DNA of 64,000 nt, taken from positions 186,001-250,000 of the forward strand of contig JAAFIS010000003.1 of the NCBI GenBank assembly GCA_013298695.1, read 5' to 3'. This stretch comes from Betaproteobacteria bacterium. GTDB lineage: Bacteria > Pseudomonadota > Gammaproteobacteria > Burkholderiales > Casimicrobiaceae. The position numbers and the translations under genes were made by a program. The notes under the pieces were generated by a model that worked only from the letters and a program-made list of their open reading frames with translations, did no database searches and was not told where the DNA came from. Shown here one piece after another: positions 5,969 to 63,987 of this stretch. Numbering within the stretch: the first letter of the stretch is position 1; the number at the start of each line of letters is the position of its first letter.

Positions 5969-6055
5969 ATGCCCTATTATATTGGGCGAAAGTGGTCAAA
6001 AACTTGCTTCTCGCAAAATATGTAAACATTCTGTTTCGCCCAAGCAAATTGATCG
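5969..6055. repeat. 58-bp GGGC/GCCC intergenic element, copy A
   Basis: Left palindrome GCCCTATTATATTGGGC starts at 5971; the right end TTCGCCCAAGCAAATTGATC has its GCCC at 6038, 67 bp later. The inner arms TTGGGCGAAA and TTTCGCCCAA are perfect 10-base inverted repeats, and GGGC-to-GCCC spans 58 bp (5984-6041). The interior is AT-rich. It lies between convergent ppc and purK, next to the REPIN. Confidence 0.7.
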
Positions 6056-6088
6056 ATACGAGCGATTGCTGTTTCTGATTTTGAAGAT

Positions 6089-7243
6089 TTAGGTGATGCG
6101 CAACACGCGCTTCACTTCGCGCGCACTTCCGAGCGCGTCATCGAGCGTCGCTGCCACACAAGTCACATGCCCCATCTTCCGCGCGCGTCGCGGTTCGGCT
6201 TTTCCGTAGAGATGCAGATGTACGCCAGACATTGCGAGGATCTCGTTCCACGCGGGTTGCATTGAAGTCGCGGGGTCGAACCACACATCACCGAGCACAT
6301 TCACCATTACCGCAGGCTGCACGAGCGACGTGTCGCCGAGCGGCGCGCCCGCGAGGACGCGCGCTTGTTGCTCGAATTGCGAAGTGACGCAGGCTTCAAT
6401 CGTGTAGTGACCGCTGTTGTGCGGGCGCGGCGCGATTTCGTTGAGCAACAGTGCGCCTGATTTCGTCACAAAAATTTCAACGCAGAGCACGCCAACGTAA
6501 TCAAGCGCGGTGACCAGCTGTTTCGCGAGCGTTTGCGCTCGCGCACTCATGTCGGTGGCGATGCGCGCAGGCACGATGGTGAGATCAAGAATGCCATTCA
6601 CGTGCTCGTTTTCTTGCACCGGCCAGACGCAAGTCTCGCCGGTCGCGTCGCGCGCGACGAGCACCGACACTTCCATCGCGAATGGCACTAGCGCTTCGAG
6701 CACGCACGGCGTGTGCGAAAAACTGTTGAACGCGGAAAGCGCTTCCGCTCGCGAAGCGACGCGCTTTTGCCCTTTGCCATCGTAGCCGAGCGTTGCGGTT
6801 TTCAGAATACCGGGGAATAGTGAATCAGCCGCAGCGTCTAGGTCGTTCGCCGATTCGATCACTGCAAACTCGCCGACGGGTAAGCCGTTAGCCGAGAAAA
6901 AACGCTTTTCTTTACGCCGATCCTGCGCCACGCGCACCGCACTCGCGCCCGGGCGCGTGGGAATCTTTGCGGCGAGTCGCTCCAGCGACGCGGCGGGCAC
7001 GTTTTCAAATTCGGTGGTAACTGCCGCGACGCGTGCGGCGAGCGCATCAATTGCGTTCATGTCGTCGTACTGCGCAACGATCACGTCGTTCGCGGCTTGC
7101 GCCGCCGGTCCATTTGCATCAGGATCGAGTACCAGAACTTGATAGCCCATCGCTTGCGCAGCATGCACGAACATACGCCCCAACTGCCCACCGCCCAAAC
7201 AACCGAGCCACGACCCCGGTGGCAACATTCCGCTGTGCGGCAT
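6089..7243 (-). CDS. purK: N5-carboxyaminoimidazole ribonucleotide synthase
   Basis: ATP-grasp enzyme of de novo purine synthesis that carboxylates AIR with bicarbonate to N5-CAIR, the substrate of PurE. The 384 aa match the family. The N-terminal nucleotide-binding turn GCLGGGQLGRM starts near residue 14. Other family segments are LKTATLGYDGKGQ, the ATP-grasp stretch LEALVPFAMEVSVLVAR and the C-terminal NEIAPRPHNSGHYTIEAC. The start codon overlaps the purE stop as TAATG, so the two are translationally coupled. Confidence 0.96.
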   Translation of the reverse strand: MPHSGMLPPGSWLGCLGGGQLGRMFVHAAQAMGYQVLVLDPDANGPAAQAANDVIVAQYDDMNAIDALAARVAAVTTEFENVPAASLERLAAKIPTRPGASAVRVAQDRRKEKRFFSANGLPVGEFAVIESANDLDAAADSLFPGILKTATLGYDGKGQKRVASRAEALSAFNSFSHTPCVLEALVPFAMEVSVLVARDATGETCVWPVQENEHVNGILDLTIVPARIATDMSARAQTLAKQLVTALDYVGVLCVEIFVTKSGALLLNEIAPRPHNSGHYTIEACVTSQFEQQARVLAGAPLGDTSLVQPAVMVNVLGDVWFDPATSMQPAWNEILAMSGVHLHLYGKAEPRRARKMGHVTCVAATLDDALGSAREVKRVLRIT

Positions 7244-7758
7244 TACGCCTTCTCAGTCATCAGCGGCGGCACGATCATCGATCGTGCGGATGCCGTTTGT
7301 TCGTCGCGGAACGAGGCGAGCTGTTGGACTAATGATTTGTTCGAAATCCCCAGCATTGCGATTGCGAACAATCCAGCATTCGCCGCGCCCGCTTCGCCAA
7401 TCGCGAAGGTTGCCACAGGCACGCCTTTGGGCATCTGCACAATGGAGAGCAGCGAATCCTCACCACGCAGATATTTTGACGGCACCGGAACGCCGAGCAC
7501 TGGCACGATCGTTTTTGCCGCGAGCATGCCGGGCAGATGCGCGGCGCCGCCCGCGCCCGCGATGATGACTTTGATGCCGCGATCAGCCGCAGAATCCGCG
7601 TACGCGAACATGTCGTCTGGCGTTCGGTGCGCCGAAACGACCTTGGCCTCGAAGCTCACGCCAAAGCGCTCCAGAATATCGGTTGCATGTTTCATCACCT
7701 CCCAATCGGAAGATGAGCCCATTACAACGCCCACAATTGCGTGATCCCCGTTTTGCAT
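7243..7758 (-). CDS. purE: N5-CAIR mutase, class I PurE
   Basis: Catalyses the mutase step from N5-CAIR to CAIR in purine synthesis and works with PurK. The 171-aa protein shows the class I signature [13 protein letters not shown] at the N-terminus, [10 protein letters not shown], the loop [14 protein letters not shown] and PVLGVPVPS. It is first in the two-gene purEK operon and overlaps purK by one base in TAATG. The C-terminal tail ([13 protein letters not shown]) is a little extended but unremarkable. Upstream lies a 145-bp gap to the divergent transglycosylase gene. Confidence 0.96.
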
Positions 7759-7903
7759 TCCGGGATTTTAACGAGTTGTTATCGGCCGCCGATCTGAGCT
7801 GTTTTCGCAAGTCGTTGCGCTTTTGAGTCATCGCGTGCGACTTTTATCGCGTTGGAGCGAGAACCCCGAACGCAGATCGCAGCGCATCACGGAAAATAGG
7901 CAC

Positions 7904-9962
7904 ATGAAGAAATTGTCACTCGCTTCTTTTTTTCTGTCTCAATGCGTTGTGTTTGTGTCGGCTGCGTACGCCAACGATGCAGCGGTGAAAGAAGCCTCGG
8001 AAGGCTTTCGACTCGGCGAAATGAGCCGCATCAGCGCCGCTCTGCCACAAGTGCGCGGGCACGTGCTTGAGGGCTACGTTGAATATTGGGCGCTGCGATT
8101 GAATATCGATGGCGCTTCGGCGGAGATCGTTGAACGTTTTCTCGACAAGCACAAAGGCACTGCGGTCGCTGATCGCATGCGAGTCGATTGGCTGAAACAG
8201 CTCGGCAAAACCGATCGTTGGGATGAATTCGCGCGCGCTGGCGCAGGATTTGAAACGGATGATTCGGAAGTGCTCTGCTACCGCGCGACGCTTGCGGCTC
8301 GAAGTGGTGGTGCAGATCTTAGCGTTCCGAGCGGCGTGTGGGCTGAGCGGCTCACAGAGGCGTGCGCCCAAGCGTTTATGGCGCTTGCAGAAAAGAATAA
8401 ATTGTCGGCAGAGGATTCCATTTGGCGGTTGCGAACGGCGGGCGAAAACTCAACACTGCTTGCGTTAACGCGTATCGCAAATTCACTGCCCGAAAGCGCG
8501 CGGCCCAACGACGAGCAACTTCGTCGCGCATTTAGCAACCCAGATATCGCGCTCAAGCTGTCGAATGCACCGTTGACTCGAGCGCAACGCGAGGCGAGCC
8601 TTGTTGCGCTGGTGCGTCTCGCTCGAACTGACGTAGCAAAAGCGCGCACGATTTGGCAGACCGTAAAGTCGAAATTCGGCGACGACGAGCAACGGCACGC
8701 CGCCGCGATGCTTGCGTATTTCAGTGCGCGACGGCTTGAGGGCGATGAAGCGATGACGTGGTTTAAACGCGCCGGCCCCGAACAAAATCTTGCGCGCTTA
8801 TCCGACTGGCAGGCCGCTTGGATCGCTCGTGCAGCCATGCGCGAAGGGCAGTGGGGCGAATTGCTGCGCGCGATCAACGCAATGGGTGTATCGGTCAACG
8901 GCGGACAAATGGATCCCACTTGGCGCTACTGGAAAGCGCGTTCGCTCGCAGCGCTGGGCGACGGCGCAGGTGCAAACGCAATCTATGCCGAGCTCGCAAA
9001 AGAATTTCATTATCACGGGCTTCTGGCCGCAGAAGAAATCGGCGCGCCGCTACCCGCTCCTGAAGCGCTGCGCAATGGCGTAGTGAAGCCGACGCCGGAA
9101 CAGCTGGCTCGTTTCGATCAATTGCCTGCGGCAAAACGCGTGTTGAAACTCTCCGAGCTCGGGCTTCGCGCAGACGCGGCGCGGGAGTGGTATAGCGTTG
9201 TGCGAGATTTCGGCGATGCCGACTCATTGCTCGCCTCTGAGTGGATGCGACTCAAAGGCGTCTGGGACCGCTCAATCAACACCGCTGAGCGAACAAAATC
9301 GGCACACGACTTCGCGCTGCGTTTCCAAACACCGTACGCGAAGGAAATTCGCAAAGCCGCAGAGGCGGTGAACGTTGATCCTTCGCTTACGTTCGGACTC
9401 ATCCGCCAAGAATCGCGCTTCTGGGCCGAGGCGGTATCGTCGGCGGGCGCGCTCGGACTCATGCAGGTGATGCCGTCCACCGGCAAATGGATTGCCCAGC
9501 AACTCAACATTCGCGACTATCGCCCAAGTCAACTCACTGACATCAACGTGAGCACCGGTTTTGGCGCGTTCTATTTGAAAAACGCGCTGAACAATCAAGG
9601 CGGAAGCGAAGTGCTTGCCGCCGCCGCGTACAACGCAGGCGCGGGCCGCGCCCGCGCAACTCACTGACATCAACGTGAGCACCGGTTTTGGCGCGTTCTA
9701 TTTGAAAAACGCGCTGAACAATCAAGGCGGAAGCGAAGTGCTTGCCGCCGCCGCGTACAACGCAGGCGCGGGCCGCGCCCGCGCTTGGCGAGACGACACC
9801 CGCGCGCTCGAGGGTGCGATTTATACCGAATCGATCCCGTTTAATGAGACCCGCGATTACGTGAAGAAAGTGCTAGCGAACGCGGTTTGGTATGCGCATT
9901 TGGGCATGGGCGGCGAAACAAGTTTGAAGAAGCGGTTGGGCGTGATTCAGCCGAAAGGCTGA
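7904..9962 (+). pseudogene. slt: Soluble lytic murein transglycosylase, frameshifted by a 127-bp tandem duplication
   Basis: Periplasmic Slt70-like enzyme that cleaves peptidoglycan to 1,6-anhydro-muropeptides. A signal peptide (MKKLSLASFFLSQCVVFVSA) precedes a helical superhelix and a C-terminal SLT domain. Catalytic E503 lies in GLIRQESRFW, followed by GALGLMQVMPSTG and AAAYNAGAGRARAW. The stretch 9530-9656 is repeated exactly at 9657-9783. As 127 is not a multiple of three, the frame shifts and stops at 9667, giving a 587-aa product that has the catalytic Glu and the first NAGAG motif but lacks the last ~60 residues. The lost tail resumes in another frame to 9962; removing one copy restores about 643 aa. 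Loss of function, a revertible switch or an assembly error are all possible. An upstream start at 7823 lacks the signal-peptide context. Confidence 0.85.
9530..9783 (+). repeat. 127-bp perfect tandem duplication inside slt
   Basis: Copy 1 is 9530-9656 and copy 2 is 9657-9783; each starts CAACTCACTGACATCAACG and ends GGGCCGCGCCCGCG. No difference between copies is visible. There is almost no microhomology at the ends (one shared C). The unit encodes the last conserved SLT-domain motif. Confidence 0.95.
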
Positions 9963-9969
9963 ATCACTT

Positions 9970-10242: not shown

Positions 10243-10249
10243 ACTAACA

Positions 10250-11197
10250 ATGAACATCCTCATCCTTGGCGGCAGCGGTTTTGTGGGCCGCGCTATTTGC
10301 AACAAACTAGTGTCACTCGGCCATGCCGTGACGGTGCCGACTCGAAAACGCGACAACGCTCGGTCATTGTTTATGTTGCCCACGGTCACCGTGATCGAAG
10401 CTGACATTCAAGACGACGCGGCGCTTGCGAAGCTCACCCAAGGCAAGCAAGCCGTCATCAATCTGGTCGGCATTCTCAATGAAAAAAAACGGGGCGATTT
10501 CCATCGCGCACACGTCGAACTCACACAGCGCGTGCTCGCGGCGTGCAAAGCTCAGGGCGTGAAACGTTATTTGCATATGAGCGCGTTAGGCGCCGCCGCC
10601 GATGCGCCAAGCGTTTATCTAACAACAAAATTTGCGGCGGAACAGGCGGTCGCAGCCAGTGGTCTTGCAGCGACAGTCTTCGCACCCAGCGTGATCTTCG
10701 GACGAGATGATTCGTTTTTGAATCGGTTTTCGAAATTGATTGACCTAACCCCGCCGCTTGCGCCTTTCGTGTTGCCAGGCGCGTCGGCCAAATTTCAACC
10801 CATTTTTGTTGACGACGTGGCGCACGTTTTTGTAACAGCGCTGACTGATGCAACGACCGTCGGGCAACGCTATGAATTAGTCGGTCCGCAGGTGTACTCG
10901 CTGCGTGAGCTGGTGCGCTATTTGATGACGATCAAATCGGACTCCCATCTCATTATTGGTTTGCCTGGATTTGCCACACACGCACTCGCGGCGGTAATGC
11001 AATTCATTCCGGCTAAGCCGCTAACACCCGACAACGTTCGATCAATGTCTGTCGACAACGTTAGCAACCAATCGCTACCTAAATTCGCGGGCATCCGCGC
11101 CACGTCGCTTGAGCTCATCGCGCCGACTTACATCGGGCGCGCTGCCGTCACCGACACGTTCGCAACGGCTCGAAAGCGCGCCGGAGATCGACAATAA
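10250..11197 (+). CDS. NAD(P)-binding epimerase-like protein (complex I NDUFA9 type)
   Basis: Atypical short-chain dehydrogenase/reductase of 315 aa. The dinucleotide-binding turn ILGGSGFVGRAI is at residues 4-15, followed by INLVGILNEKK and a YLTTKFAAEQAV segment with the Tyr-x-x-x-Lys pattern. It most resembles the family related to the NDUFA9 accessory subunit of complex I and to NmrA-type proteins, which bind NAD(P)H but often have no known reaction. No substrate can be assigned. The start is unambiguous, beginning directly with the Rossmann strand. The 5' leader holds the AGGACG hairpins. Confidence 0.8.
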   Translation: MNILILGGSGFVGRAICNKLVSLGHAVTVPTRKRDNARSLFMLPTVTVIEADIQDDAALAKLTQGKQAVINLVGILNEKKRGDFHRAHVELTQRVLAACKAQGVKRYLHMSALGAAADAPSVYLTTKFAAEQAVAASGLAATVFAPSVIFGRDDSFLNRFSKLIDLTPPLAPFVLPGASAKFQPIFVDDVAHVFVTALTDATTVGQRYELVGPQVYSLRELVRYLMTIKSDSHLIIGLPGFATHALAAVMQFIPAKPLTPDNVRSMSVDNVSNQSLPKFAGIRATSLELIAPTYIGRAAVTDTFATARKRAGDRQ

Positions 11198-11209
11198 GTT
11201 TGCCGACAC

Positions 11210-11296
11210 ATCTTCCATTTAGTTGGGCGTTGCGGCCTCTACGCGATCTGGTCAATAAATTATAAAAAACTTCTTATCGCCCAATGAAAACGGCGA
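11210..11296. repeat. 58-bp GGGC/GCCC intergenic element, copy B
   Basis: The right arm of the first palindrome (AGTTGGGCG) has GGGC at 11225 and the second palindrome TATCGCCCAATGAAAACGGCG ends its GCCC at 11282, a 58-bp core. The left outer arm is degenerate (TTCC in place of GCCC). The interior is AT-rich. It fills the gap between two co-directional genes and ends about 14 bp before the esterase start. Confidence 0.65.
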
Positions 11297-11309
11297 TGCA
11301 TACAGAAAG

Positions 11310-12272
11310 ATGAATATCATGAGCGAGCGACTAGACGATGAGCTGCGCGAGTTTTTTAAGAGTTCATCAGCGCTGTTCCCGCCGCTTGCCCCCGATGCTT
11401 CCCCGCTCGCGCGTCGCAGTCGATACTGGACCGTGTGCGCCCTTGGCCGCACTGACTTACCGTCGGGCGTCACAATGAACGACGTGACGCTGGATCTAGC
11501 CAGCGGAAAAGTCCGTACGCGGTTGTTCTACGGTCATGACGGCGGCGATGAGCCCGTGCCAACAATCATTTATTTTCACGGCGGTGGCTGGGTTGTCGGC
11601 GACATTGACACTCACACCGGAACCTGTGCCCGCCTTGCGCACGAGGCCAACGCGTTGGTGTGTTCGGTCGACTACCCGCTCGCGCCTGAGGCCCCTTGGA
11701 GAGCAATCACCGACGCTTGTTTCCAGGCGGCCAATGCGATCGCCATGGATCGCATGGCGGCGTCACCTGGCGCGCCCATTGCGATCGCCGGAGACAGTGC
11801 GGGCGCTCACTTAGCTGCGGTCACTGCGCTGCGTGTGCGCGACGAATCTGAGGTCCACCTCGCGTTGCAAGCGCTCATCTATCCGTGTGTTGAGCCACAG
11901 TTCGACACGCCTAGCTACCGCGAATTCGCGGCTGGGCCAGGGCTCACTCGCGTCGACATGCAATGGTATTGGCAACAGTTTGCTGGAGGAGACGTGAATC
12001 TTCCACACGCCGCGATCTCGCCACTGCGCGCAGCGTCGCTCTCTGGGCTGCCTCCTGCATACGTGGTCACTGCGGGATGTGATCCGCTTCGCGACGACGG
12101 GCGCGCGTTTGTTAATGCGTTGCAGTCTGCCCGCGTGATCGCGCATCACGACGAGTTCGAGAGTCTGCCGCACGGTTTTCTGCGGATGTCGAAATATAGT
12201 GATGCAACGCACGCCGCTATCGGCCACATTAATCGTCGCATCGGCGAGATGCTGCGTAGCGCGAACACCTAA
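11310..12272 (+). CDS. HSL-family alpha/beta hydrolase (esterase/lipase)
   Basis: Carboxylesterase-like serine hydrolase of 320 aa without a signal peptide, so probably cytoplasmic. The oxyanion motif HGGGW is near residues 90-94, the nucleophile elbow GDSAGAH holds the catalytic Ser, and D (CDPLRDDG) and H (LPHGFLRM) complete a triad. These are the diagnostics of the hormone-sensitive lipase (type IV) family. The start at 11310 has AGAAAG directly upstream; an ATG three codons later is possible. The next gene begins 6 bp after the stop, so this heads a three-gene run with the TSUP transporter and the glycosyltransferase-like fusion. The substrate is unknown. Confidence 0.88.
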   Translation: MNIMSERLDDELREFFKSSSALFPPLAPDASPLARRSRYWTVCALGRTDLPSGVTMNDVTLDLASGKVRTRLFYGHDGGDEPVPTIIYFHGGGWVVGDIDTHTGTCARLAHEANALVCSVDYPLAPEAPWRAITDACFQAANAIAMDRMAASPGAPIAIAGDSAGAHLAAVTALRVRDESEVHLALQALIYPCVEPQFDTPSYREFAAGPGLTRVDMQWYWQQFAGGDVNLPHAAISPLRAASLSGLPPAYVVTAGCDPLRDDGRAFVNALQSARVIAHHDEFESLPHGFLRMSKYSDATHAAIGHINRRIGEMLRSANT

Positions 12273-18841: not shown

Positions 18842-18929
18842 AGCACGAAGTGTATTGAGCCGTGCGAATGCGAGGGGCGTCCACACAATTTGAACGTGTG
18901 AACTATCGAATCCTAGAGAAACAGCTAGG

Positions 18930-19015
18930 ACAGCTTTGAAAATTGGCGTTACGACGTAAAACTACAATAATCAAAATATTACTTAATATCTTGTATCGCC
19001 CAATTGAATCGGGGA
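18930..19015. repeat. 58-bp GGGC/GCCC intergenic element, copy C
   Basis: The degenerate first palindrome (GCTTTGAAAATTGGCG) is followed 65-66 bp later by TATCGCCCAATTGAATCGGGG. The core from GGC at 18945 to GCCC ending 19001 is about 58 bp. The interior is very AT-rich. It lies between two minus-strand genes. Confidence 0.6.
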
Positions 19016-19028
19016 GAAATGTAAAAAG

Positions 19029-19844
19029 CTATTGTGTTTCGATGCTGCGTTCAAGATCTAGTGTCGCGCCAAACACGAACGAATCCATTGAAATAGCACC
19101 GTGCTCGATGCCGCCGTCGATCACGGTGTACGGCGAAATTGTTTGTGCAGCACCCAGAGCAAACGCGAGCGGCAAAAAATGTTCTGACGTGGGGTGCGAA
19201 GCTCGTGCGTTCGGCGCGAGTTCGAGTGCGTGCGCCGCCGCGTCGGTGTCGCCTCGATGCAGTGCATCGTGAATCCAGGCAACAAATGAGCTCGCCGACG
19301 AATCAACTGTGGACGAGTGAAACCGCATGTTCCTCAGGTTGTGAGTCAAGCTTCCTGATCCAATGATGAGCACGTTTTCGATCGCCAGTGGCGCGAGCGC
19401 TCGACCGATCGCAAGCGCTGTATCGGCGTCAGCGCTAAACGGCAATGACACCTGTACCACCGGTATGTCAGCGGCAGGAAACACATGCATTAACGGCACC
19501 CACGCACCGTGATCACGCCCAACCTGAGCATCGAGCGCTGCTGCAATGCCTGCGGAAGTTAACTGCGTACAGATTTTGCTCGCGAGCTCGGGTGCACCCG
19601 GAGCGCGATATTGCAACGAATAAAGCGGATCAGGAAATCCGGAAAAATCATGGATTGTTTCGGGCTGCATCGCCGCGCCAATACGTACTTCAGGTGTCAT
19701 CCAATGCGGCGACATCACAATGATCGCGCTCGGCTTTATAAGCGTGCGCCCAAGCGCGCCTAACAGCGCACCCGCACGACCGGGCGAGAGCGCAAAGGTC
19801 GGTGCACCGTGTGAAACAAACAAAACAGGCTGCTGAATATTCAT
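19029..19844 (-). CDS. ygiD: Class III extradiol ring-cleavage dioxygenase (4,5-DOPA dioxygenase type)
   Basis: Non-heme metal enzyme of the LigB/DODA superfamily, 271 aa. Visible hallmarks are FVSHGAPTFALSPG at the N-terminus, IIVMSPHWMTPEVR, DHGAWVPLMHVFPAADIP and GSGSLTHNLRNM, which hold the conserved metal-binding and active-site histidines. Members cleave catechol-type rings such as L-DOPA; the physiological substrate in bacteria is uncertain. The gene stands alone on the minus strand, 58 bp downstream of the NRDE gene, with an element copy after it. Confidence 0.9.
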   Translation of the reverse strand: MNIQQPVLFVSHGAPTFALSPGRAGALLGALGRTLIKPSAIIVMSPHWMTPEVRIGAAMQPETIHDFSGFPDPLYSLQYRAPGAPELASKICTQLTSAGIAAALDAQVGRDHGAWVPLMHVFPAADIPVVQVSLPFSADADTALAIGRALAPLAIENVLIIGSGSLTHNLRNMRFHSSTVDSSASSFVAWIHDALHRGDTDAAAHALELAPNARASHPTSEHFLPLAFALGAAQTISPYTVIDGGIEHGAISMDSFVFGATLDLERSIETQ

Positions 19845-19902: not shown

Positions 19903-20703
19903 TTAGCCAATCGAAAACGAAAATTCAACTCGCGACGCATCGATGCAATCTGCGGTGTGCGTCGCTTCTTCAACGAACACGTGTTGATTGCGAACGACGA
20001 CCAATGTGCTGCAGCGCGTGCCGTAATCGGCGAGCGTCGGCGGCGACTCAGCGCGCGCGGTGTTGCGAATGAAAATGGGTGAGAGCGCGCGCTCCCAGGG
20101 AAGTGGCACTCCCGTCGCAGGAAGCTCATCGTCGGGCGCTGGCGTTTCATCGCGCAACACGTTTCGTAGCGCCTCAAGTCGCGATGGCGAATCGGTTGCG
20201 GCCGCAATTGCAAAGCGCTGTTTGAGGCGAGAGACTTTCGGCCACGGCGTATCGAGCGATGCGTTCGACACGGCGTAGTGTCCGGCGTCGAGCGCACGCG
20301 GCACTCGCTCAACGCTGTTCAAAAACCAAAGTGACCGTTCCTGCGCGGCAAGTGTGCCGAGCATCAGGTTAAATCCGGCGAAGGTATCGGCCACTGCGGC
20401 GACCCGCGCAAGGTAGGTTTCTGGGGGTTGATCGCTTTCGAGAAAACCAAGCGGCAATTCGCCCCGTGAACGTGCGGCCGTTTTCGGTTTCGAGCCGTCA
20501 CGCACGTTGGTGACCATCGCGAAGCGACCTTCACGCGTGATGCCAAGCCAGGTGCCACCGGCCATCTCATCTTGACCCATCAGTACTCTAGAGTTACGCC
20601 AGGTCATGACTGAGCTTGAGCGGGAAAAAAACTCATCTCGATTAGCGGCGATTACGATATCGTCGCCCAATCTATGCGGCCATTGAATAACACAGATGCA
20701 CAT
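19903..20703 (-). CDS. NRDE family protein (TANGO2-like)
   Basis: Protein of 266 aa belonging to the NRDE/TANGO2 family, recognised by the namesake motif AANRDEFFSR near residue 19 and by GGTWLGITREGRFAMVTNVR. The N-terminal cysteines (MCIC) are typical of the family, whose fold resembles Ntn-hydrolases. Eukaryotic TANGO2 has been linked to heme or lipid handling; the bacterial role is unknown. The start at 20703 begins directly with the conserved MCICVI. The gene is divergent from an IclR regulator across a 170-bp gap. Confidence 0.88.
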   Translation of the reverse strand: MCICVIQWPHRLGDDIVIAANRDEFFSRSSSVMTWRNSRVLMGQDEMAGGTWLGITREGRFAMVTNVRDGSKPKTAARSRGELPLGFLESDQPPETYLARVAAVADTFAGFNLMLGTLAAQERSLWFLNSVERVPRALDAGHYAVSNASLDTPWPKVSRLKQRFAIAAATDSPSRLEALRNVLRDETPAPDDELPATGVPLPWERALSPIFIRNTARAESPPTLADYGTRCSTLVVVRNQHVFVEEATHTADCIDASRVEFSFSIG

Positions 20704-28272: not shown

Positions 28273-28320
28273 GAAGGCGACTAGCGTTAGGGCGTTGAGA
28301 ATACAGCTTACATCGTTTAC

Positions 28321-28405
28321 CGCCCATTTATGAGGGGCGAAGAAGCAGAAAAAACGGCTATTGACCTCGACGCAATTGCCGTTCGTCGCCCAATCAAATT
28401 GGGCC
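28321..28405. repeat. 58-bp GGGC/GCCC intergenic element, copy E
   Basis: First palindrome CGCCCATTTATGAGGGGCG (GCCC at 28322), second CGCCCAATCAAATTGGGC (GCCC at 28388), period 66 bp. The core from GGGC at 28335 to GCCC ending 28391 is 57 bp. An extra GGGCG at 28290 suggests a decayed neighbour. It sits between convergent ctaE and the DUF2909 gene. Confidence 0.7.
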
Positions 28406-28425
28406 GCAGCGTCGAAAGCCGAAGG

Positions 28426-31049: not shown

Positions 31050-31070
31050 CGCAGCAACTTACGCACGAGA

Positions 31071-31155
31071 CGCTCGCTTAAACTCGGCAAGCAACGATTT
31101 ACAAGCGGTTCCGAGATTTAGTTTTCTTAGCGACATCGCCCAGCTAAATTGGGCG
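31071..31155. repeat. 58-bp GGGC/GCCC intergenic element, copy F
   Basis: Degenerate first palindrome GCTCGCTTAAACTCGGC at 31072, perfect second CGCCCAGCTAAATTGGGCG with GCCC at 31138, 66 bp later. Core about 57 bp (31085-31141). It sits between convergent cyoE and the rubredoxin gene. Confidence 0.65.
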
Positions 31156-31172
31156 GAACGAAGCGGAGCTGC

Positions 31173-35082: not shown

Positions 35083-35106
35083 CGGTTAATAGCTAGATTG
35101 CAGTTG

Positions 35107-35190
35107 CGCCTACTTGATTGGGCCAGCAACGATTTTCATGAAACTCTCGATAACATCGCTTTTCAAGCTTTCCGCCCAATTATTACGCGG
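35107..35190. repeat. 58-bp GGGC/GCCC element, copy H, overlapping the gspH 5' end
   Basis: First palindrome GCCTACTTGATTGGGC at 35108, second CGCCCAATTATTACGCGG with GCCC at 35174, period 66 bp; the core GGGC 35120 to GCCC 35177 is 58 bp. Unlike the other copies it overlaps a likely reading frame: the best ATG for gspH (35138) is inside it. Confidence 0.6.
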
Positions 35191-35689
35191 TTTGCGGGGC
35201 AAGACTATCTCGAGATCGCCGCTTTCAGGACAACGCGCTGCGCTTTTGGCGCGCGGCTTTACGATGATCGAAATGCTGGCGGTGATATTGGTGATCGCAG
35301 CGGTTGCGGCGATCTCGACGCCGATGTTTTCTTCTGGCGTAAGCGCATCGAAACATCGCGGCGCTGCGCGTGAAGTGGCGCAAATGCTTCGGTTGGCGCG
35401 CACCGAGGCGGTGGCCAAGCGGATCGACGTCGGCGTGGATTTTGACCTTGAAGCGCGCACGATGCAGATGCCAACCGCGTCGAACAAACGCGTCGCGAAA
35501 ATTCCCGAGGGCATTGAGCTCAACTTAACCACCACCGTCGCCGAAACCAAAAACGAAAAGCAGGCATCGATCCGCTTTTATCCGGACGGCGGCGCAACCG
35601 GCGGGCGCGTCACGCTTAAAGTCAAAGATCGCTCGTATCTGGTCGACGTCGACTGGCTCACGGGTCGCGTGTCGATCGACGAAGCGTAA
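35138..35689 (+). CDS. gspH: Minor pseudopilin GspH
   Basis: Minor pseudopilin of 183 aa as drawn. The cleavage site is RG-FTMIEMLAVILVIAAVAA with Glu +5, and the body has the GspH pattern (AREVAQMLRLARTEAVAKRIDV and a C-terminal beta-rich part with SIRFYPDGGATGGRVTLK). The leader from ATG 35138 would be about 40 residues, much longer than the usual 6-15, and most of it is encoded by repeat copy H. The true start may therefore be an alternative codon closer to the cleavage site, for example TTG just before ARGFT. It lies between gspG and gspI. Confidence 0.88.
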   Translation: MKLSITSLFKLSAQLLRGLRGKTISRSPLSGQRAALLARGFTMIEMLAVILVIAAVAAISTPMFSSGVSASKHRGAAREVAQMLRLARTEAVAKRIDVGVDFDLEARTMQMPTASNKRVAKIPEGIELNLTTTVAETKNEKQASIRFYPDGGATGGRVTLKVKDRSYLVDVDWLTGRVSIDEA

Positions 35690-50075: not shown

Positions 50076-50175
50076 GAATTCTTGCAGTCGCGAACAATTA
50101 CATATTGTGCCAAACACGCGCTGAATTTCGACCTGGGAAACTACACGCGAAATACATTTAACTCTACACACCAAT

Positions 50176-50259
50176 GACTAGTGATATGGGCGTATAGCGA
50201 CTTTGGAGTTGAATATCGAAAAATAAAGAAAATCGACCTATCGCCCAATTAAGCGGGGC
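50176..50259. repeat. 58-bp GGGC/GCCC intergenic element, copy I
   Basis: First palindrome degenerate on the left (GACTAGTGATATGGGCG), second TCGCCCAATTAAGCGGGGC with GCCC at 50243, period about 66 bp. Core GGGC 50188 to GCCC 50246 is 59 bp. It lies between two minus-strand genes, downstream of the TPR protein and upstream of the M14 peptidase. Confidence 0.65.
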
Positions 50260-50283
50260 TATAAAGGATAGCGCCGTTATCAA

Positions 50284-51303
50284 TTAACTTTCGCGCAGTC
50301 CTCGCATGCGGGCAATGAGCTTCGCTTCGTTTTCGATCATCCACGAATCTTTCTCTGCGATCGCAAGCGCTTTAACCGCGTAGTCTCTAACTTTAGTCGC
50401 ATCTCGTTTCGCATCGAAGAGCTCAGCCAGCTCGCTGTAGATGTAAACGTCGGGCTCTTTCGCTTCGTCGGCTTCGCGTTCAAGCCGTAGTTGAATCGCG
50501 AGCGCTTCGTCGATGCGACCTTGCAGGCGGAGCGTATTCGCGATCTGCCAGCGCACGACGCGCATGCGCGCAGGTCGGTTAAGGGATTCCTCCGCTTTTT
50601 CGGTCGCTTGAAACAACGAGAGTGCACGCGTGTAATTTTTTTTCGCACGCTCAGACACACCCATGTTGTGCGTGAGCGTGGAGCGCCAACGGATCGCGGC
50701 GGGCAGTCCACTCGCATTAGCTAGATCGAGAGCCTTCTGGTTCCACCTCTGCGCTTCATCGAGGTCCGGAGAAAAACCAAACATATGCGCTGCGTCGATT
50801 GCAAGAATTGTGAGGTTTGCCGCGACCGCACGATCAAACGCTTCCTGAAAATACGGGCGTGCAATCTCAAAGTCCTTCGGCGTACGTAGCGTCCTGCCTC
50901 GCTCCAACGCTTCACGCACGCGCACGACTGCGGGCGTCTGCGCAGTGATTTTTTCCTTAACGCCATCGAGTATCGACAGTGCCTGGGCTTCGTCACGCCG
51001 CAAACCATACGTACGCGCGATTTGCGTTTCAAGCTCGAGCACCTGGACGTCATTTGCGCGCGTCATTGCATCGCGAAAACGTGCTTCGCTCTCTGCCGGT
51101 TTCGAGAAGTCCCAGAGTGTGTCGATATCGATCAAAGCCGCCATTGTGGATCCCGTCTTCGGAAAAATGTTGGAGGTACAGCCATTGGACGCCAAGACAA
51201 CTACAAGCGCGGTCAAGCCCGCGCCTACAAGCCGGGCGCCAGAAAAGGCGTGGCGCAAGCGCGCGCTAGATCGAGAGAGGATGCTTAAGGGGCGACGCAT
51301 CAA
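50284..51303 (-). CDS. TPR-containing exported or membrane-anchored protein
   Basis: Protein of 339 aa with an N-terminal hydrophobic segment (LVGAGLTALVVVLASNGCTS). The Cys could be lipidated, but ASNGC is not an ideal lipobox. The rest is helical with tetratricopeptide-like pairs (YTRALSLFQATEKAEESLNR; RWQIANTLRLQGRIDEALAI; YSELAELFDAKRDATKVRDY). It serves presumably as a scaffold; no partner is evident. It is the last gene of a four-gene minus-strand operon, and its start codon directly abuts the stop of the flavin-reductase-like gene. Confidence 0.78.
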   Translation of the reverse strand: MMRRPLSILSRSSARLRHAFSGARLVGAGLTALVVVLASNGCTSNIFPKTGSTMAALIDIDTLWDFSKPAESEARFRDAMTRANDVQVLELETQIARTYGLRRDEAQALSILDGVKEKITAQTPAVVRVREALERGRTLRTPKDFEIARPYFQEAFDRAVAANLTILAIDAAHMFGFSPDLDEAQRWNQKALDLANASGLPAAIRWRSTLTHNMGVSERAKKNYTRALSLFQATEKAEESLNRPARMRVVRWQIANTLRLQGRIDEALAIQLRLEREADEAKEPDVYIYSELAELFDAKRDATKVRDYAVKALAIAEKDSWMIENEAKLIARMRGLRES

Positions 51304-51971: not shown

Positions 51972-52874
51972 TCAAGCTCGACACGCGCTTAGCTCAGGAC
52001 GCGCGGACGTTTGAAGGAGAAATTCGCGAACGGCCTGAATCGTTTTATCATCCATTAACATCGGTGCATGACCCGTGGCTTCAATTGTTATCGACCTTGA
52101 TTGCGGGGCAATATTCAACATTTTACTGAGTGTTGATTCAGATAATAAATCAGAGCTTTGCCCACGCAAAATAAGCGTTTCTTGCTTAACGCTAGACCAC
52201 AATGGCCACAAATCAACGGGCGGCAATTTGAGCCCCGCAACAAACGCCTCGCCAATTTTTGCATCCGTTTTGAATTCCCACTGCCCATCTTCGCGTTTGC
52301 GACACGACGTGCCGATGACGTGATGCTTCTGCTCATCGGTGAGCGGGCCAAACGGCGCAATCGCAACTTGCGCGGCGTTGAAAAGACTGAGGTAATCCGG
52401 AAATGAGGGCGGTCGTGCGCTCAAAAACGCAGCGATGCGAATGAGTGAGTCGCGCTCGATCTCGGGGCCGATATCGTTAATCACGAATTTGCGCATGCCT
52501 GAATTCGGCGCTGCCGCCAAGGCCATACCGATCAAGCCGCCCATCGACGTGCCGATCCAATCGTATTTCGTGATCGCAAGATCCGCAAACATTTTCAACA
52601 TCGCACCGACGTAATTCGGAATTGCATATTCGGCGGCGCTCGCATACCAATCGCTCTCGCCACGACCAATCACATCCGGGCAGAGCACACGATATCGATC
52701 CGACAATGCATCCGCAATCACATCAAAATCGCGCCCATTGCGCGAGAGCCCGTGAACGCAGATAAGCACGTTCGGATTCGTGATCTCGCCCCAGTCGTGC
52801 ACGGCCATGCGGCGTGTTGCACCGTTCGCTACTGGAACGTCAACAAAAAACCGGCGAGGTGGTTTTGGAATCAC
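51972..52874 (-). CDS. Alpha/beta hydrolase
   Basis: Serine hydrolase of 300 aa. The family features are [20 protein letters not shown] with the oxyanion [14 protein letters not shown], the nucleophile elbow [14 protein letters not shown], and the C-terminal [10 protein letters not shown] with the catalytic His. Many such proteins act on esters or on ring-cleavage products; the substrate is not predictable. It overlaps the upstream RraA-like gene by four bases (ATGA) and lies 14 bp before the flavin-reductase-like gene. Confidence 0.87.
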
Positions 52875-53365: not shown

Positions 53366-53374
53366 TCGATTGTA

Positions 53375-53479
53375 TGTAGGCGACTCCCCGCGAAGGCGGG
53401 GATCAACGTCGCTTCGATTGAATTGCTGTGAGTTCCCCGAAGCGCGGTCGATCCCCGCCTACGCGGGGACGCGCCTACA
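53375..53479. repeat. REP doublet (REPIN), family 2
   Basis: Inverted copies at 53375-53404 and 53450-53479. Each reads TGTAGGCG(A/C)... then the hairpin TCCCCGC-GAAG-GCGGGGA, respectively TCCCCGC-GTAG-GCGGGGA on the opposite strand. The GTAG head next to a hairpin and the inverted pairing fit REPINs. The sequence family differs from the copies at 5838 and 59587. It separates divergent rraA and the DUF1415 gene. Confidence 0.85.
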
Positions 53480-53525
53480 TCCACCGGTGGGCGGCTTAAC
53501 GTCGCTTCACCGCTACCATTCATCT

Positions 53526-55206: not shown

Positions 55207-55240
55207 CTTAAGTCTGCCAGTAACTATTGCAATACGAAAA

Positions 55241-55321
55241 CTATTCTATTGGGGTGTGACGGGAAATTATCTATTTTTTGATACAACAATAGAATTACTG
55301 CAAAGCCGAATAAAAACGGGC
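55241..55321. repeat. 58-bp GGGC/GCCC-type element, copy K (degenerate)
   Basis: TTCTATTGGGG (GGGG at 55251) is followed 66-67 bp later by the palindrome GCCGAATAAAAACGGGC (GGGC at 55318). The core GGGG to GCCG is 58 bp, and the AT-rich interior and the trailing CATACATGG resemble copies J and B. It occupies the left part of the 341-bp gap 55207-55547. The rest of that gap contains no gene I can support. Confidence 0.5.
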
Positions 55322-55547
55322 ATACATGGCGATAGTTTTCTTTTTAGAAACGCCTGTGTCGCTGACGTCGATACGCTGTAACGTCATCGAAGTTATCAGC
55401 GTCGACCCATTGCTCTTTCTCACGCAGTCGCGCTCAAGGCCATCGTAGATTTGCGACCCCTCGCTCGCGCTTGATTCTTTTCCAGCATGCCACTTCTCTC
55501 GAAGCGGTGTGTTGGCCGTAACGGCCCCGCAGCCTCGAAAGTTTTTC

Positions 55548-56225: not shown

Positions 56226-59056
56226 GCGTTCGCGAAACTCTCGATCGGTGGACACGAACACATAATATTGCGATCACCGTACACATCATCCACGCGACCG
56301 ACGGGCGGCCAGTATTTATTCGCGCGCACGCTCGCATTCGGATACGCGGCTTGCTCGCGTGAGTAGGCGCGATTCCACGTTTCTGAGAGCAGCACTTCTG
56401 CGGTGTGCGGGGAATTCACGAGCGGATTGTCATCCTTCGGATAAACGCCCATTTCAACCGCGCGAATTTCCTCGCGAATCGCGATCAGCGCATCGATGAA
56501 GCGATCCAATTCGTATTTTGCTTCCGATTCTGTGGGCTCGATCATGAGCGTTCCCGCAACCGGGAAGCTCACCGTTGGCGCGTGGAAGCCGTAATCCATC
56601 AAACGCTTTGCGACATCCATATTCGAGATGCCACAAATTTCTTTGATCGGACGAATGTCGATGATGCATTCATGCGCGACGAAACCGCCGTGTCCCGTGT
56701 ACAGAATCGGATAGTGCGGCGCGAGCTTCTTCGCGACGTAGTTCGCATTCAAAATCGCCACTGCGGTCGCATCGCGTAAACCGTCCGCACCCATCATGCG
56801 GATGTAGGCATAAGGAATCGGCAGGATGCTCGCGCTGCCATGCGGCGCAGCGCTTACCGCACCGACGATGCCGCGACCAGGAAGAAACGGCGCGAGCTGC
56901 GATTTCACACCAATGGGCCCCACACCAGGTCCGCCGCCGCCGTGTGGAATGCAAAATGTTTTGTGCAAATTCATGTGCGACACATCCGCACCGATTTCCG
57001 CGGGATACGTCACACCGACTTGCGCATTCAAATTCGCGCCGTCCATGTACACCTGCCCGCCGTGCTGGTGCACGATCGCGCAAATGTCTTTTACCGCCTC
57101 TTCGAACACACCGTGTGTTGAAGGGTAAGTAATCATTAGCGCAGCGAGGCGTGAAGAATATTTTTCAGCCGCGGCTTTGAGATCAGCGACGTCTACGTTG
57201 CCCTGATCGTCACATTTCGTGACGACGACTTCCATGCCGCACATTTGCGCGGAGGCTGGGTTCGTGCCGTGTGCGGACGAAGGAATCAAACACACATCGC
57301 GTTGCTTATCACCGCGTGACAAGTGATAGCCGCGAATGGCGAGCAAGCCCGCGTATTCGCCTTGAGCGCCGCTGTTCGGTTGCAGCGTTACTGCATCGAA
57401 GCCTGTGACTTTGCAAAGCATATCCTCGAGGTTCGCAATCATTTCGGCATAGCCCTTGGCTTGCTCGGCCGGTGCGAAGGGATGCATGTTGCCAAATTCT
57501 GGCCACGTGACGGGAATCATCTCGGTCGTTGCGTTCAACTTCATCGTGCACGAGCCGAGCGGAATCATGGTGCGATCCAGCGCCAAATCTTTGTCGGAAA
57601 GGCGACGGATATAGCGCAACATTTCGGTTTCGGAATGATGCGTATTGAACACGGGGTGGGTGAGGATTGCGCTGGTGCGGCGTAGATTGGTTGGGATGCC
57701 CATTCCCTCACCCGCCCTGTCGGGCACCCTCTCCCCGAGGGAGAGGGTTTTATTCAGTGCTTTTGCAACACAAGCAAGCAGCGCATCAACATCACCCACC
57801 GTGTGCGATTCATCAAACGTCGCACCGACGGCGCTCCAATCTGCGTAGTGCCGCACATTCATACGCATTGCGCGCGCGGCATCAACGATCTTCGCTGCTG
57901 CGTCGTGCTTAAACGTCACGGTGTCAAAGAATTGCGAAGCGGCAATCTCAACGCCCATCGACTTCAATCCCGCCGCAAACCGCGTGGCACGCGCATGCAC
58001 GCGCTCCGCAATCGCGCGCAAGCCTTTCGGCCCGTGATACACCGCGTACATCGACGCCATCACGGCGAGGAGTACCTGCGCCGTACAAATGTTCGACGTC
58101 GCTTTCTCACGGCGAATATGTTGCTCGCGCGTTTGTAGCGTGAGGCGATACGCAGGCTTGCCGCTTGAATCAATCGTCACGCCGACCAAGCGGCCTGGCA
58201 GATTGCGTTTGTACGCATCCCGCGTCGCCATGAACGCAGCGTGTGGGCCGCCGTAACCCATCGGCACACCGAAGCGCTGCGATGAGCCCACGACAATATC
58301 CGCGCCCCATTCGCCCGGTGCCTTGAGCATCACGAGTGCGAGTGGGTCAGCGGCACAAATGAAGAGCGCTCCTTTCTCATGCGCAGCCTCCGCATAAGCG
58401 GCCATATCGTGGATCTGCCCCGATGTCGATGGATACTGCGCGAGCACAGCGAAATAATCGCCTTCGTCCATAAGCTTCGGCGCGAAACCGACCTTCACAA
58501 CAATCCCCATGGGTTCGGCGCGCGTTTTGATCACGTCGATGGTTTGCGGATGGCAATCGCTCGCGACGATCAACACATTGCTTTGCGATTTCGCTTGACG
58601 CTGCGCAAGCGTCATTGCTTCTGCGGCAGCGGTGCCTTCATCAAGCAACGAAGAGTTTGCGATGTCCATGCCGGTCAAATCGCAAATCATCGTTTGATAA
58701 TTGATGAGCGCTTCAAGACGACCTTGCGCAATCTCGGGTTGATAGGGCGTGTACGCGGTGTACCAAGCGGGATTCTCAAGAATGTTGCGCAGGATCACAC
58801 CGGGCGTGACCGTGCCGACATAGCCTTGCCCGATGAAGCTCTTGAACACTTCGTTTTTGTTCGCAATGGCTCGCAATTCTGCAAGCGCTTCCACCTCGTT
58901 TTGAGCGGGCGGCAACGATAGCCTCGTCGAGGCAAGAATCGTTTTTGGGACGACTTTCGCGATCAAGTCTTCAGTGGAATTCGCGCCCACCACTGCGAGC
59001 ATTTCCATTTGCTCTTCACGGTTGGGACCAATGTGGCGTTCGATGAAATCAGACAT
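56222..59056 (-). CDS. gcvP: Glycine dehydrogenase (decarboxylating), P-protein
   Basis: PLP enzyme of the glycine cleavage system that decarboxylates glycine and loads the methylamine on lipoyl-GcvH. At 944 aa it is a full single-chain P-protein. The PLP lysine is K699 in [16 protein letters not shown]. Start and end motifs ([19 protein letters not shown]) are intact. The linker between the two halves, residues ~436-450, carries an insertion [15 protein letters not shown] encoded by a REP-like sequence (57705-57747) in frame. The gene is last of the gcvT-gcvH-GNAT-gcvP set, 79 bp after the GNAT gene. Confidence 0.96.
57705..57747. repeat. REP-like hairpin repeat inserted in frame in gcvP
   Basis: CCCTCACCCG, the hairpin GCCCTGTCGGGC, then CCCTCTCC-CCGA-GGGAGAGGG. 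This is the common proteobacterial dispersed repeat that yields peptides like LSLGERV-GEG when translated. It replaces a variable linker of the P-protein, so the enzyme can stay functional. Confidence 0.8.
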
Positions 59057-59135
59057 GTTTGCTACCTAAATGCTTCTTTGAGTGATCCGTTCGTGGTGAG
59101 CCTGTCGAACCATGAACGCGTGTGAGTAAGTCGTA

Positions 59136-60032: not shown

Positions 60033-60048
60033 AGCAATCTCCTGAAAT

Positions 60049-61182: not shown

Positions 61183-61350
61183 CGGGACGCTCCGGCCGCT
61201 TTCGGCGCAATGGAATAACACGTCCCGGATCTGTCCTTTGTACCTGAGAGATTCACCGACCGCATCGCGCGTTCCGGTTTGCCCCTTCGGCGGAAGCTCT
61301 CACGATTCGTCTTCGAAGAAAACGTTCGCTGCCTCGCTCTCCAGATGGTT
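61183..61350 (-). promoter_or_regulatory. Glycine riboswitch with start-site hairpin, controlling gcvT
   Basis: Minus strand carries, in order, CTGGAGAGCG (GGAGAG at 61342-61337), CGCCGAAGGGGCAAAC (from 61292) and CTCTCAGGTACAAAGGACAG (61250-61231), the three conserved blocks of a glycine aptamer in the right order and spacing. Only one full aptamer is visible. Just after it, CGGGACG (61227-61221) can pair with CGTCCCG (61189-61183), the seven bases between the GGAG ribosome site and the gcvT start. Pairing would hinder initiation, so control at translation is likely. Confidence 0.93.
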
Positions 61351-61360
61351 GTAGCGGGTC

Positions 61361-62889: not shown

Positions 62890-63396
62890 ATGTCCACAGT
62901 GATGTACACCGCCTCGGTTTCCGCGTTTGATCGTCATCTCGCAATGATGCAGGGCTATCTTGGCAAGGGCGCGGCATATGCGGTCGAGAAAAAGCTTGAC
63001 GACACGGTGCTCACGCAAATGCGAATATTCCCCGACATGTTCCCGCTGACGCGACAAGTCATGATTGCTTGCGATTTCGCAAAAGGGTCTTGCGCACGAC
63101 TCGCGGGAGTCGACATTCCCAAGTTTGAAGATACCGAAAAAACGTTTGCGGAGCTGCAAGCGCGGGTTCAGAAAACGCGCGATTTTTTAGCAAGCCTGAA
63201 GCCCGAGCAGTTTGCCGAAAGCGCGACGAAAAAAATCTCGATCACCATCGGCGGTAATCCCGTTGAGTTTGTTGGCGAAGCCTACTTGTTCGCGTTCGTC
63301 ACACCGAATTTTTACTTCCACTCGACGACCGCGTACAACTTGCTACGCCAAGCGGGTGTTCCGGTAGGTAAAGGCGATTTCGTCAGCCGCAATTAG
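62890..63396 (+). CDS. DUF1993 family protein
   Basis: Helical protein of 168 aa matching DUF1993, which resembles the DinB-like four-helix group. Typical stretches are ASVSAFDRHLAMMQGYLGKG, LDDTVLTQMRIFPDMFPLTR, QVMIACDFAKGSCARLAGVD and the end FYFHSTTAYNLLRQAGVPVG. The function is unknown. The start MSTVMYTA at 62890 begins the conserved region; an upstream start at 62809 is rejected. The gap 62689-62889 to the divergent TRAP gene has no repeat element. Confidence 0.85.
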   Translation: MSTVMYTASVSAFDRHLAMMQGYLGKGAAYAVEKKLDDTVLTQMRIFPDMFPLTRQVMIACDFAKGSCARLAGVDIPKFEDTEKTFAELQARVQKTRDFLASLKPEQFAESATKKISITIGGNPVEFVGEAYLFAFVTPNFYFHSTTAYNLLRQAGVPVGKGDFVSRN

Positions 63397-63448
63397 TGCG
63401 CGCACGTTACTGAATTCCGCGTTTGATTACAAAAAATTGGAGAACATC

Positions 63449-63886
63449 ATGAAGCCCATGAAACAAATTAGCGCAATCATTGCGACAGCTTTCGCCGCCG
63501 CTGCGTTTGCGCAGTCACCCGTTGGCTTGTGGAAAACAATCGACGACAAAACCGGCAAAGAGCGCGCGCTGGTGCGCATCACTGAGGCGGGTGGCGTGTT
63601 CACCGCAAAAATCGAAAAGTTGCTCGCGGCGGACGCAAAGCCCGATGCCAAGTGTGATCAATGCACAGACTCGCGCAAAGATCAGCCGGTGGTCGGGATG
63701 ACGATCATGCGTAACGTCAAGAAAAACGACGAGGTGTACGACGGTGGCGATATTCTTGACGCCAATAGCGGCAAGGTCTACAGGGTTCGGTTGGCTCTCG
63801 CAGGCGACAACAAAAAACTTGATGTGAAAGGCTACATCGGTACGCCGCTGTTTGGTCGCACGCAAACGTGGCAGCGAGTTGAGTAA
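63449..63886 (+). CDS. DUF2147 exported protein
   Basis: Small secreted protein of 145 aa with a signal peptide (ISAIIATAFAAAAFAQ) and a beta-barrel-like domain. The pattern SPVGLWKTIDDKTGKERALV, then CDQCTDSRKDQPVVGMTIMR and LDANSGKVYRVRL and ending LDVKGYIGTPLFGRTQTWQR is that of DUF2147, a periplasmic family of unknown role. Two cysteines in CDQC are typical for it. GGAG 6 nt before the ATG at 63449 sets the start, 52 bp after the DUF1993 gene, so co-transcription is possible. Confidence 0.88.
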   Translation: MKPMKQISAIIATAFAAAAFAQSPVGLWKTIDDKTGKERALVRITEAGGVFTAKIEKLLAADAKPDAKCDQCTDSRKDQPVVGMTIMRNVKKNDEVYDGGDILDANSGKVYRVRLALAGDNKKLDVKGYIGTPLFGRTQTWQRVE

Positions 63887-63903
63887 CAGCTTCCGAACCG
63901 TTT

Positions 63904-63987
63904 CGCCCTATCTATTGGGCGAACGAGCGACATTACATAGTTGGCAATTATGCAATAAATTTGCCAGATCGCCCGCTATAAACGGGG
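63904..63987. repeat. 58-bp GGGC/GCCC intergenic element, copy J (best preserved)
   Basis: First palindrome TTCGCCCTATCTATTGGGCGAA is a perfect stem; the second is ATCGCCCGCTATAAACGGGGAT. GCCC positions 63905 and 63971 give a 66-bp period, and the core GGGC 63917 to GCCC 63974 is 58 bp. The interior is AT-rich. It follows the DUF2147 gene at the right edge of the window. Confidence 0.7.

Follow-up and report, generated by a model that had tools for sequence, protein, structure and literature searches.

The window analysed here, 64,000 bp of a Betaproteobacteria bacterium (positions 186001–250000 of contig C16 in its own assembly, G000, which comprises 4.08 Mb in 22 contigs), carries copies of a dispersed, dyad-symmetric DNA element of about 118 bp, and counts in two genomes imply several hundred copies per genome. 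The host belongs to an uncultured betaproteobacterial (Burkholderiales) genus known from metagenomes. The copies share a fixed series of conserved boxes, they keep their places between species as their consensus drifts, and in two species they have fewer close neighbours than expected; two copies inside coding genes formed without insertion. We lean towards the view that each copy is a duplex docking site for a putative fast-evolving, lineage-specific protein that bends or wraps DNA, probably for chromosome organization.

The initial annotation of the window described nine intergenic loci with a fixed 57–59 bp core running from GGGC to GCCC. All nine cores are present: a profile (R1), whose training set included two of them (5984 and 11225), recovers eight of them with E ≤5e-6 and the one at 31085 with E 6.7e-4. 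A partial copy proposed at 31498 gave no R1 match up to E 1. Genome-wide, TTGGGCG-N(33-60)-CGCCCAA occurs at 39 places and the same pattern read backwards at none; 30 of the 39 cores measure 62 bp end to end, and 36 measure 61–63 bp. Since these lengths are the 57–59 bp taken two bases further out per side, the spacing is indeed fixed rather than broadly spread. Among the 26 GGGCG..CGCCC pairs lying at most 150 bp apart in the window, six have the 57–59 bp spacing.

The core geometry is thus real, but the core is only the middle of the element. Column counts over 30 copies with 62-bp cores and full flanks revealed a conserved A-R-C-T 24–27 bp beyond each arm, with further conserved columns at gCCC, TTTA, the arm, TT at a distance of 13 bp from the middle, and the central TC·GA (the raised dot marks the centre). 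An expectation-maximization (EM) comparison found no preferred orientation (gain of 116 versus 127 ± 6 for symmetric-model sequences, n = 30). Because conservation continues outside the core and orientation is absent, we describe the element as a dyad of ~118 bp with terminal inverted repeats, ending in AGC(T) on both sides. From one end it reads AGC(T) / GCCC-ATTTAAT-GGGCGA / TTTA / TTTATC·GATAAA, continuing as the mirror image, with TC·GA at position 0, TTTA at 12–15 bp, GGGC at 26–29, GCCC at 39–42 and AGC(T) at 55–58. Conserved boxes extend to 58–59 bp on each side of the centre, and a weak further signal at 67–69 bp would bring the extent up to ~138 bp. The consensus of 95 G000 copies, up to the centre, is aacAGCTaT.....t.aa.gcCCaATTTaATTGGGCgAta.....atTTA.....tTTaTC·GA.. 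and the motif holds 64–74 bits. Interior columns are near random, yet the box spacing is kept and the left and right halves are in register in 65 of 74 copies. In G000 and in a second species, G005, A/T maxima fall ~10 bp apart, lying ~4, 14, 24, 30–37, 44 and 54 bp out from the centre. When one period is fitted to the entire element, the best value is 9.5–9.55 bp; a coarser scan gave 10.0 bp for G000. Fourteen lone half-sites of at least 15 bits were also seen in G000 C1:300001–880000 (the reversed control, run for one half only, gave 0) and are possible births or remnants of full sites.

Copy numbers were estimated with a core matrix trained on 57 intergenic copies (leave-one-out minimum, 38.9 bits), and the counts reported here rest on this later matrix rather than on earlier ones set at 5% false discovery. 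It found 46 matches of at least 6 bits in 400 kb of G000 outside the training sequence, eight of them centred in open reading frames (ORFs); the reversed sequence gave none, and three codon-shuffled versions of the 400 kb gave no coding matches. For G005 (4.47 Mb, one contig), a matrix built from 27 of its own copies found 31 matches in 400 kb on which it had not been trained, all of them outside ORFs, with no match in either the reversed or the codon-shuffled coding control. Scaling these 400-kb counts arithmetically gives ~470–550 copies in G000 and ~320 in G005.

Two coding copies show how such sites can originate. The element is mostly intergenic, as first described, but it also occurs inside ORFs (14 of the 78 copies found along 580 contiguous kb of G000, and 4 of the window's 13 full copies), and 20 copies of at least 8 bits lie wholly within ORFs in the G000 sequence examined. 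Comparison of coding sites against relatives covered phosphoenolpyruvate carboxylase (PEPC) and Der. Of eight relatives compared with PEPC (a partial sequence, L056, was left out), seven align over the site without gaps and one shows a single missing residue; the window gene scores 24.9 bits and L054 scores 34.9 bits at the same codons, compared with –18.7 for L050 (a contig of a third species, G002) and below –50 for the other six. The Der linker of G000 carries a site of 35.7 bits in an aligned region of 68 residues. The same region spans 55–66 residues in 11 full-length congeners, none with a site, 71 in a truncated Der from G008, also without one, and 42 in G016; G006 contributed no ortholog. 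Insertion of 118 bp would add 39–40 residues, and because neither site brought a length gain of that size, sites can form by substitution. In CysH and in the hydrolase at 51972–52808 the Pfam match likewise spans the site without surplus length. Several other coding matches fall in linkers or N-terminal extensions (Der, XdhA, RodZ, RluB), where an insertion could hide, and the XdhA match is ~48 residues longer than its model.

Intergenic sites keep their places between species. Across 53 orthologous gaps of G000 and G002, with the better of two matrices counted for G002, a site is present in both species in 17, in G000 only in 4, in G002 only in none and in neither in 32 (Fisher p 1.9e-10), so that 17 of 21 are kept in G002. 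In these 17 pairs the box columns are 51% identical and the non-box columns 33% (better of two orientations). The consensus reads GGGCgAt in G000, gGGgcta in G002, and GGGCTTaa and AAAGTCGACTTT in G005, and 14 of the 17 G000 copies as well as 14 of the 17 G002 copies fit the matrix of their own species better. Since the consensus moved and the copies follow their own matrix, many sites have shifted together while staying put, and the consensuses drift between species like dialects.

Placement was assessed against genes called by our own hexamer method, in which start codons are uncertain. In a first G000 set, 6 of 71 intergenic copies overlap an ORF by more than 5 bp, compared with 35% of random intergenic placements, and 36 of 71 lie within 30 bp of an ORF end. 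Copies between tandem genes lie close to the stop codon of the gene upstream (median distance 27 bp, versus 112 bp to the next start, in G000; 11.5 versus 150.5 bp in G002). Gaps of at least 100 bp in the 580 kb are occupied to different degrees, 15 of 32 when convergent, 36 of 173 when tandem and 11 of 46 when divergent, which departs from the original impression that copies fill gaps whatever the orientation of the flanking genes. Density is one copy per 5–14 kb, and the 78 copies in the 580 kb have a mean spacing of 7.5 kb. Intervals shorter than 2 kb make up 0.091 of these, versus 0.206 under the null (p 0.001, n = 78), and G005 has none versus 0.124 (p 0.011, n = 33), with a coefficient of variation (CV) of spacing of 0.63 versus 0.96 (p 0.007). 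The window has a CV of 0.53 versus 0.89 (p 0.011, n = 13). The first stretches studied gave a CV of 0.60, some of them having been chosen near known copies, and the contiguous 580 kb retains just the shortage of close neighbours. One 55-kb stretch (G000 C1:574381–629427) contains no element of at least 8 bits; its coding density is 0.80, it holds large ATPase-like genes by eye, its G+C is not unusual, and it is possibly an acquired island.

The copies in the window, listed without strand, are as follows.

4145–4262: coding site in the PEPC gene; 24.9 bits; also in the relative L054.
5954–6071: full element in the convergent gap between PEPC and purK; 78.4 bits by the core matrix (a training-set copy), R1 E 2e-17; no counterpart in the 2.7-kb G002 gap.
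11195–11312: full element that fills the space separating an epimerase gene from a hydrolase gene; 61.0 bits; ortholog kept in G002.
18914–19031: full element in a tandem gap; 64.3 bits; absent from the orthologous G002 gap.
20581–20698: weak copy in a divergent gap; 14.4 bits; weak G002 counterpart of 16.0 bits.
28304–28421: full element around the core first noted at 28335; 43.8 bits; ortholog kept in G002.
31054–31171: degenerate copy around the core first noted at 31085; 20.3 bits; strong G002 ortholog, 56.8 bits with the G002 matrix.
35090–35207: full element in a tandem gap; 52.7 bits; not found in G002.
39146–39263: coding site in an unidentified ORF (37859–39373); 19.9 bits, with 0 in the codon-shuffled coding control; a possible G002 counterpart (L120:18912), which lies at another distance from the end of the gene, is left out of the shared sites.
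42207–42324: very weak site in the ORF at 41000–43219; 9.5 bits, the lowest accepted in the window.
50159–50276: full element adjoining a stop codon; 61.8 bits; ortholog kept in G002.
52076–52193: coding site in an alpha/beta-hydrolase gene (51972–52808, minus strand); 25.2 bits; the G002 ortholog has a site (L119:17137, 19.0 bits) at a similar distance from the stop codon.
55221–55338: full element; 64.2 bits; weak G002 counterpart of 9.0 bits.
63887–64000: element truncated at the edge of the window; 39.5 bits over the 116 bases that remain; G002 counterpart by the same gene, 57.7 bits.

Other repeats lie among these copies. REP-like inverted repeats (TAGCCCGGATGCTCGCATCCGGG...) at 5836–5951 directly adjoin the element at 5954–6071, have several short matches in G002 and are a REP-type family separate from the element. 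Short repeats with many G002 copies at 51205–51230, 53374–53480, 57702–57747 and 59085–59118 are apparently further REP-type families. At 9530–9783, where a gene ends, a 127-bp unit occurs twice in perfect tandem, reflecting either a recent duplication or an assembly effect. An ordinary glycine riboswitch precedes gcvT (61221–61354, minus strand).

To follow the element among relatives, we built a genus profile (A2) from seven genomes (G000, G001, G002, G005, G006, G009 and G011) and, under stricter filters, scored no more than 30 matches per genome. The profile detects the element in G000 and in 15 of 16 congeners, and none in the remaining one, G016 (2.6 Mb, 97% complete). Among 102 other relatives only G085, from a sister genus, has a match, a single weak one (E 2.3e-5) that may be a relic, contamination or chance. 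Outside the own genome, the exact pattern gave one match each in six of the relatives searched, with only that in G002 convincing, and its reversed control also matched in six genomes; profiles were needed to search the whole genus. In GTDB r220, from which the own genome and near kin were possibly left out, no stretch holds the exact pattern TTGGGCGA-N21-TCGA-N21-TCGCCCAA; a looser exact pattern gave 13 viral stretches, probably by chance. At Rfam gathering thresholds the window yields only the glycine riboswitch and the element matches no curated family, and a search of open-licence papers found no description of such an element.

Three natures had been proposed for the element at the outset: a REPIN-like mobile element, a structured RNA and a paired site for a chromosome-organizing protein. 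The last fits best, with both the protein and the chromosome function being proposals of ours. A dedicated protein or homo-oligomer would read the boxes across about eleven helical turns of double-stranded DNA, in a two-fold symmetric assembly with the DNA wrapped or bent over ~118–138 bp; DNA lying against a single protein face would be expected to carry A/T boxes every ~10 bp, as is the case here. Several hundred sites would arise and persist in place by substitution, mostly in permissive DNA just past stop codons but also inside genes, with close neighbours below expectation. Their number, spacing and conservation point to a chromosome function, in which the sites might serve as anchors, bends or domain borders every 5–14 kb.

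Several observations weigh against this docking-site proposal. The analysis turned up no binding protein for the sites. The spacing CV in the 580 kb of G000 is not below the null (1.00 versus 0.93, p 0.77), stretches of as much as 55 kb are empty, and the share of short intervals in the window is ordinary (0.25 versus 0.35, p 0.31). In an earlier set of eight orthologous pairs, boxes were 50% identical, hardly above the 42% of mismatched pairs (28% and 24% for non-box columns), so what is conserved is the place and the consensus rather than the single copy. Weak sites, at 10–16 bits in one species, also occur among the 17 shared ones. Positional conservation and drift would also follow from molecular drive without a host function. 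Lastly, measured as z against dinucleotide shuffles, RNA folding of the copies is stronger than that of sequences generated by the matrix (the column model), at –2.11 versus –1.06 in G000 (n = 95) and –2.15 versus –0.81 in G005 (n = 54), and mirrored columns pair in small excess in G005 (z 3.07; 1.92 in G000). Because of this extra folding and the G005 pairing excess, a hairpin role may exist.

A bidirectional RNA element or terminator at gene 3′ ends would account for copies that sit just past stop codons in tandem gaps and are commonest in convergent ones, and the 3′-end copies do fold strongly (mean z –2.26 for tandem copies, median –1.48, n = 37; –2.12 for convergent copies, n = 15). Any symmetric sequence is able to fold, but copies of the element fold better than shuffled columns do (z –9.5 and –11.5), and most of this is attributable to 3′ ends once coding and divergent copies are compared. 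The same structure is not a property of every copy: those in coding sequence (mean z –1.00, n = 20, four of them below –2) and those in divergent gaps (mean z –1.22, n = 11) resemble the G000 column model, a contrast with the 3′-end copies that is limited because sites in coding sequence have a lower average strength. Folding is also seen in 3′ flanks that lack the element (z –0.66 in G000, –1.23 in G005), the 26 local arm registers compared give z from –2.1 to 2.8 with no consistent covariation, and mirrored columns that are unconserved pair at chance in G000 (z 0.30; 2.65 in G005). We consider such a 3′-end RNA element quite improbable as the main explanation, find no support for structured RNA, one of the natures first suggested, as an intrinsic property, and keep open a secondary RNA role at gene 3′ ends, where the extra folding is found. 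Most simply, the site would be read as a duplex, and gene-end copies would in addition hold terminator-like hairpins. Molecular drive of the kind known for DNA uptake sequences (DUS) deserves more weight, though we still regard it as unlikely: a receptor or recombination protein that prefers motif-bearing DNA would let copies pile up in permissive places without benefit to the chromosome. The element behaves in populations much as described for DUS and uptake signal sequences (USS), with in-situ origin, permissive positions, dialects and relatively even spacing (PMC3630211, PMC7811141), and the large element-free stretch may be an acquired island. However, at ~118 bp and 64–74 bits it far exceeds the 10–12-mer DUS (as outlined in PMC3630211) and the 31-bp full-length USS of a model (as outlined in PMC7811141), its density of one per 5–14 kb compares with about one per 1 kb for USS in the same source (PMC7811141), and a dyad with ~10-bp phasing over 118 bp would be unusual as the target of a surface receptor.

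Gyrase offers another rival: the copies might be strong gyrase sites specific to the lineage, comparable to BIME-2 and the strong gyrase site (SGS) of phage Mu, that draw gyrase to gene 3′ ends. BIMEs are located at gene ends, and the present sites favour convergent gaps and stop codons; aligned on the annotated gyrase cut, the A/T profile and the Mu SGS are also correlated (z 2.1 and 1.8), and the gyrA model gives a second, ParC-like match in only 1 of 15 genomes. The length (118 bp, with weak signal to ~138) and the symmetry about TC·GA resemble the Escherichia coli gyrase motif, which PMC6379681 describes as ~130 bp, symmetric about a 4-bp cut, degenerate, and with G+C phased at 10.75 bp in the arms. 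Yet the best A/T period of the element is the shorter one given above, and power at 10.75 bp, with the whole element fitted, is less than half of that at the best period in G000 and a ninth in G005. The element is also base-specific where the E. coli motif is called degenerate (PMC6379681), and its profile agrees better with Mu DNA at some other offsets than at the cut. GyrA is ordinary and 89–90% identical among G000, G002 and G005 while the site consensus drifts (13 sequences compared, those from G011 and G020 being void as the wrong ORF), and G016 has a normal GyrA and no sites. As the tests are mixed, gyrase stays a rival, if a rather improbable one. The single ParC-like match comes from G020, and extra matches in G006 and G013 look like split gyrA pieces; topoisomerase IV may be missing in this family, judging by the gyrA model only, no ParC model having been run. 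Old, decayed non-autonomous mobile elements, either miniature inverted-repeat transposable elements (MITEs) or REPIN-like, are in our judgement very improbable. Copies of bacterial MITEs are near-identical and those of REPINs and REPs nearly so; copies of the element are not, their interior columns being near random while the box spacing is kept. Size, end-to-end inverted symmetry and intergenic preference do match bacterial MITEs as portrayed in PMC2229807, but the PEPC and Der sites formed without insertion and 17 of 21 testable intergenic sites are common to two species. The coding sites thus refute insertion as the sole origin; a subset of copies could be insertions. A REPIN, as first suggested, was rejected. 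The sole Y1_Tnp (RAYT-like) gene found in G000 (locus L036, C1:100270–100635) has a REP of another kind on its flanks, the GTAGGGTGGGCAC.. repeats, with no copy of the element in the 3.4 kb around it; the GTAG or CGTC tag at the hairpin foot of REPs and REPINs (PMC3733652) is absent from either element consensus, and the interiors are unrelated. At L036, this Y1 transposase has its own GTAGGGTGGGCACCCCGTGCCCACC repeats, and an IS110-like transposase and a toxin-antitoxin-like pair adjoin it, by eye and without a search.

The docking-site proposal has a wider form, which we put forward tentatively. The genus may possess a chromatin-like system of its own, with 300–550 positioned particles of ~118 bp per chromosome, in which a putative wrapping protein would occupy dyad sites that are kept apart and selected even in coding genes, and whose recognition code would evolve fast and in step. 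Known bacterial chromosome-shaping sites are short, or long but degenerate like gyrase sites, so that this would be a new level of bacterial chromosome architecture, built on long, base-specific sites that are born in place, stay put from species to species and change their consensus in step, and a natural experiment on the co-evolution of a DNA-binding protein with hundreds of sites. Molecular drive would be new as well, because we know of no uptake-type motif of ~118 bp.

Among known systems, matS, parS, KOPS and other chromosome-organization motifs are also dispersed protein sites that evolve in place; they are 8–16 bp long and regional or skewed, whereas the element is ~118 bp and genome-wide. 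DUS and USS are likewise many, dispersed and formed in situ, with permissive positions, species dialects and fairly even spacing, but at 10–31 bp they are much shorter and far denser, and the element has no known link to uptake. The gyrase motif, the Mu SGS and BIME-2 share a length of ~120–130 bp, two-fold symmetry about a 4-bp centre and phased A/T; the gyrase motif is phased at 10.75 bp and degenerate, in contrast to an element that is phased at ~10 bp and base-specific and whose consensus drifts against a nearly constant GyrA. ERIC, Correia/NEMIS, RUP and other MITEs are inverted-repeat sequences of ~100–160 bp found mostly between genes, but they are mobile insertions, whereas two sites of the element appear without length change. 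REPs and REPINs also place two small palindromes in opposite orientation around a variable interior in extragenic DNA; the element differs in lacking the GTAG/CGTC tag, in its unrelated interiors and in that the RAYT-like gene carries another REP. For the wrapping we propose, the nearest likeness is with octameric proteins: in PMC8481266, LrpC is proposed to wrap DNA in a nucleosome-like manner and RemA to do so on poorly conserved repetitive DNA, neither being tied to sites of the kind described here.

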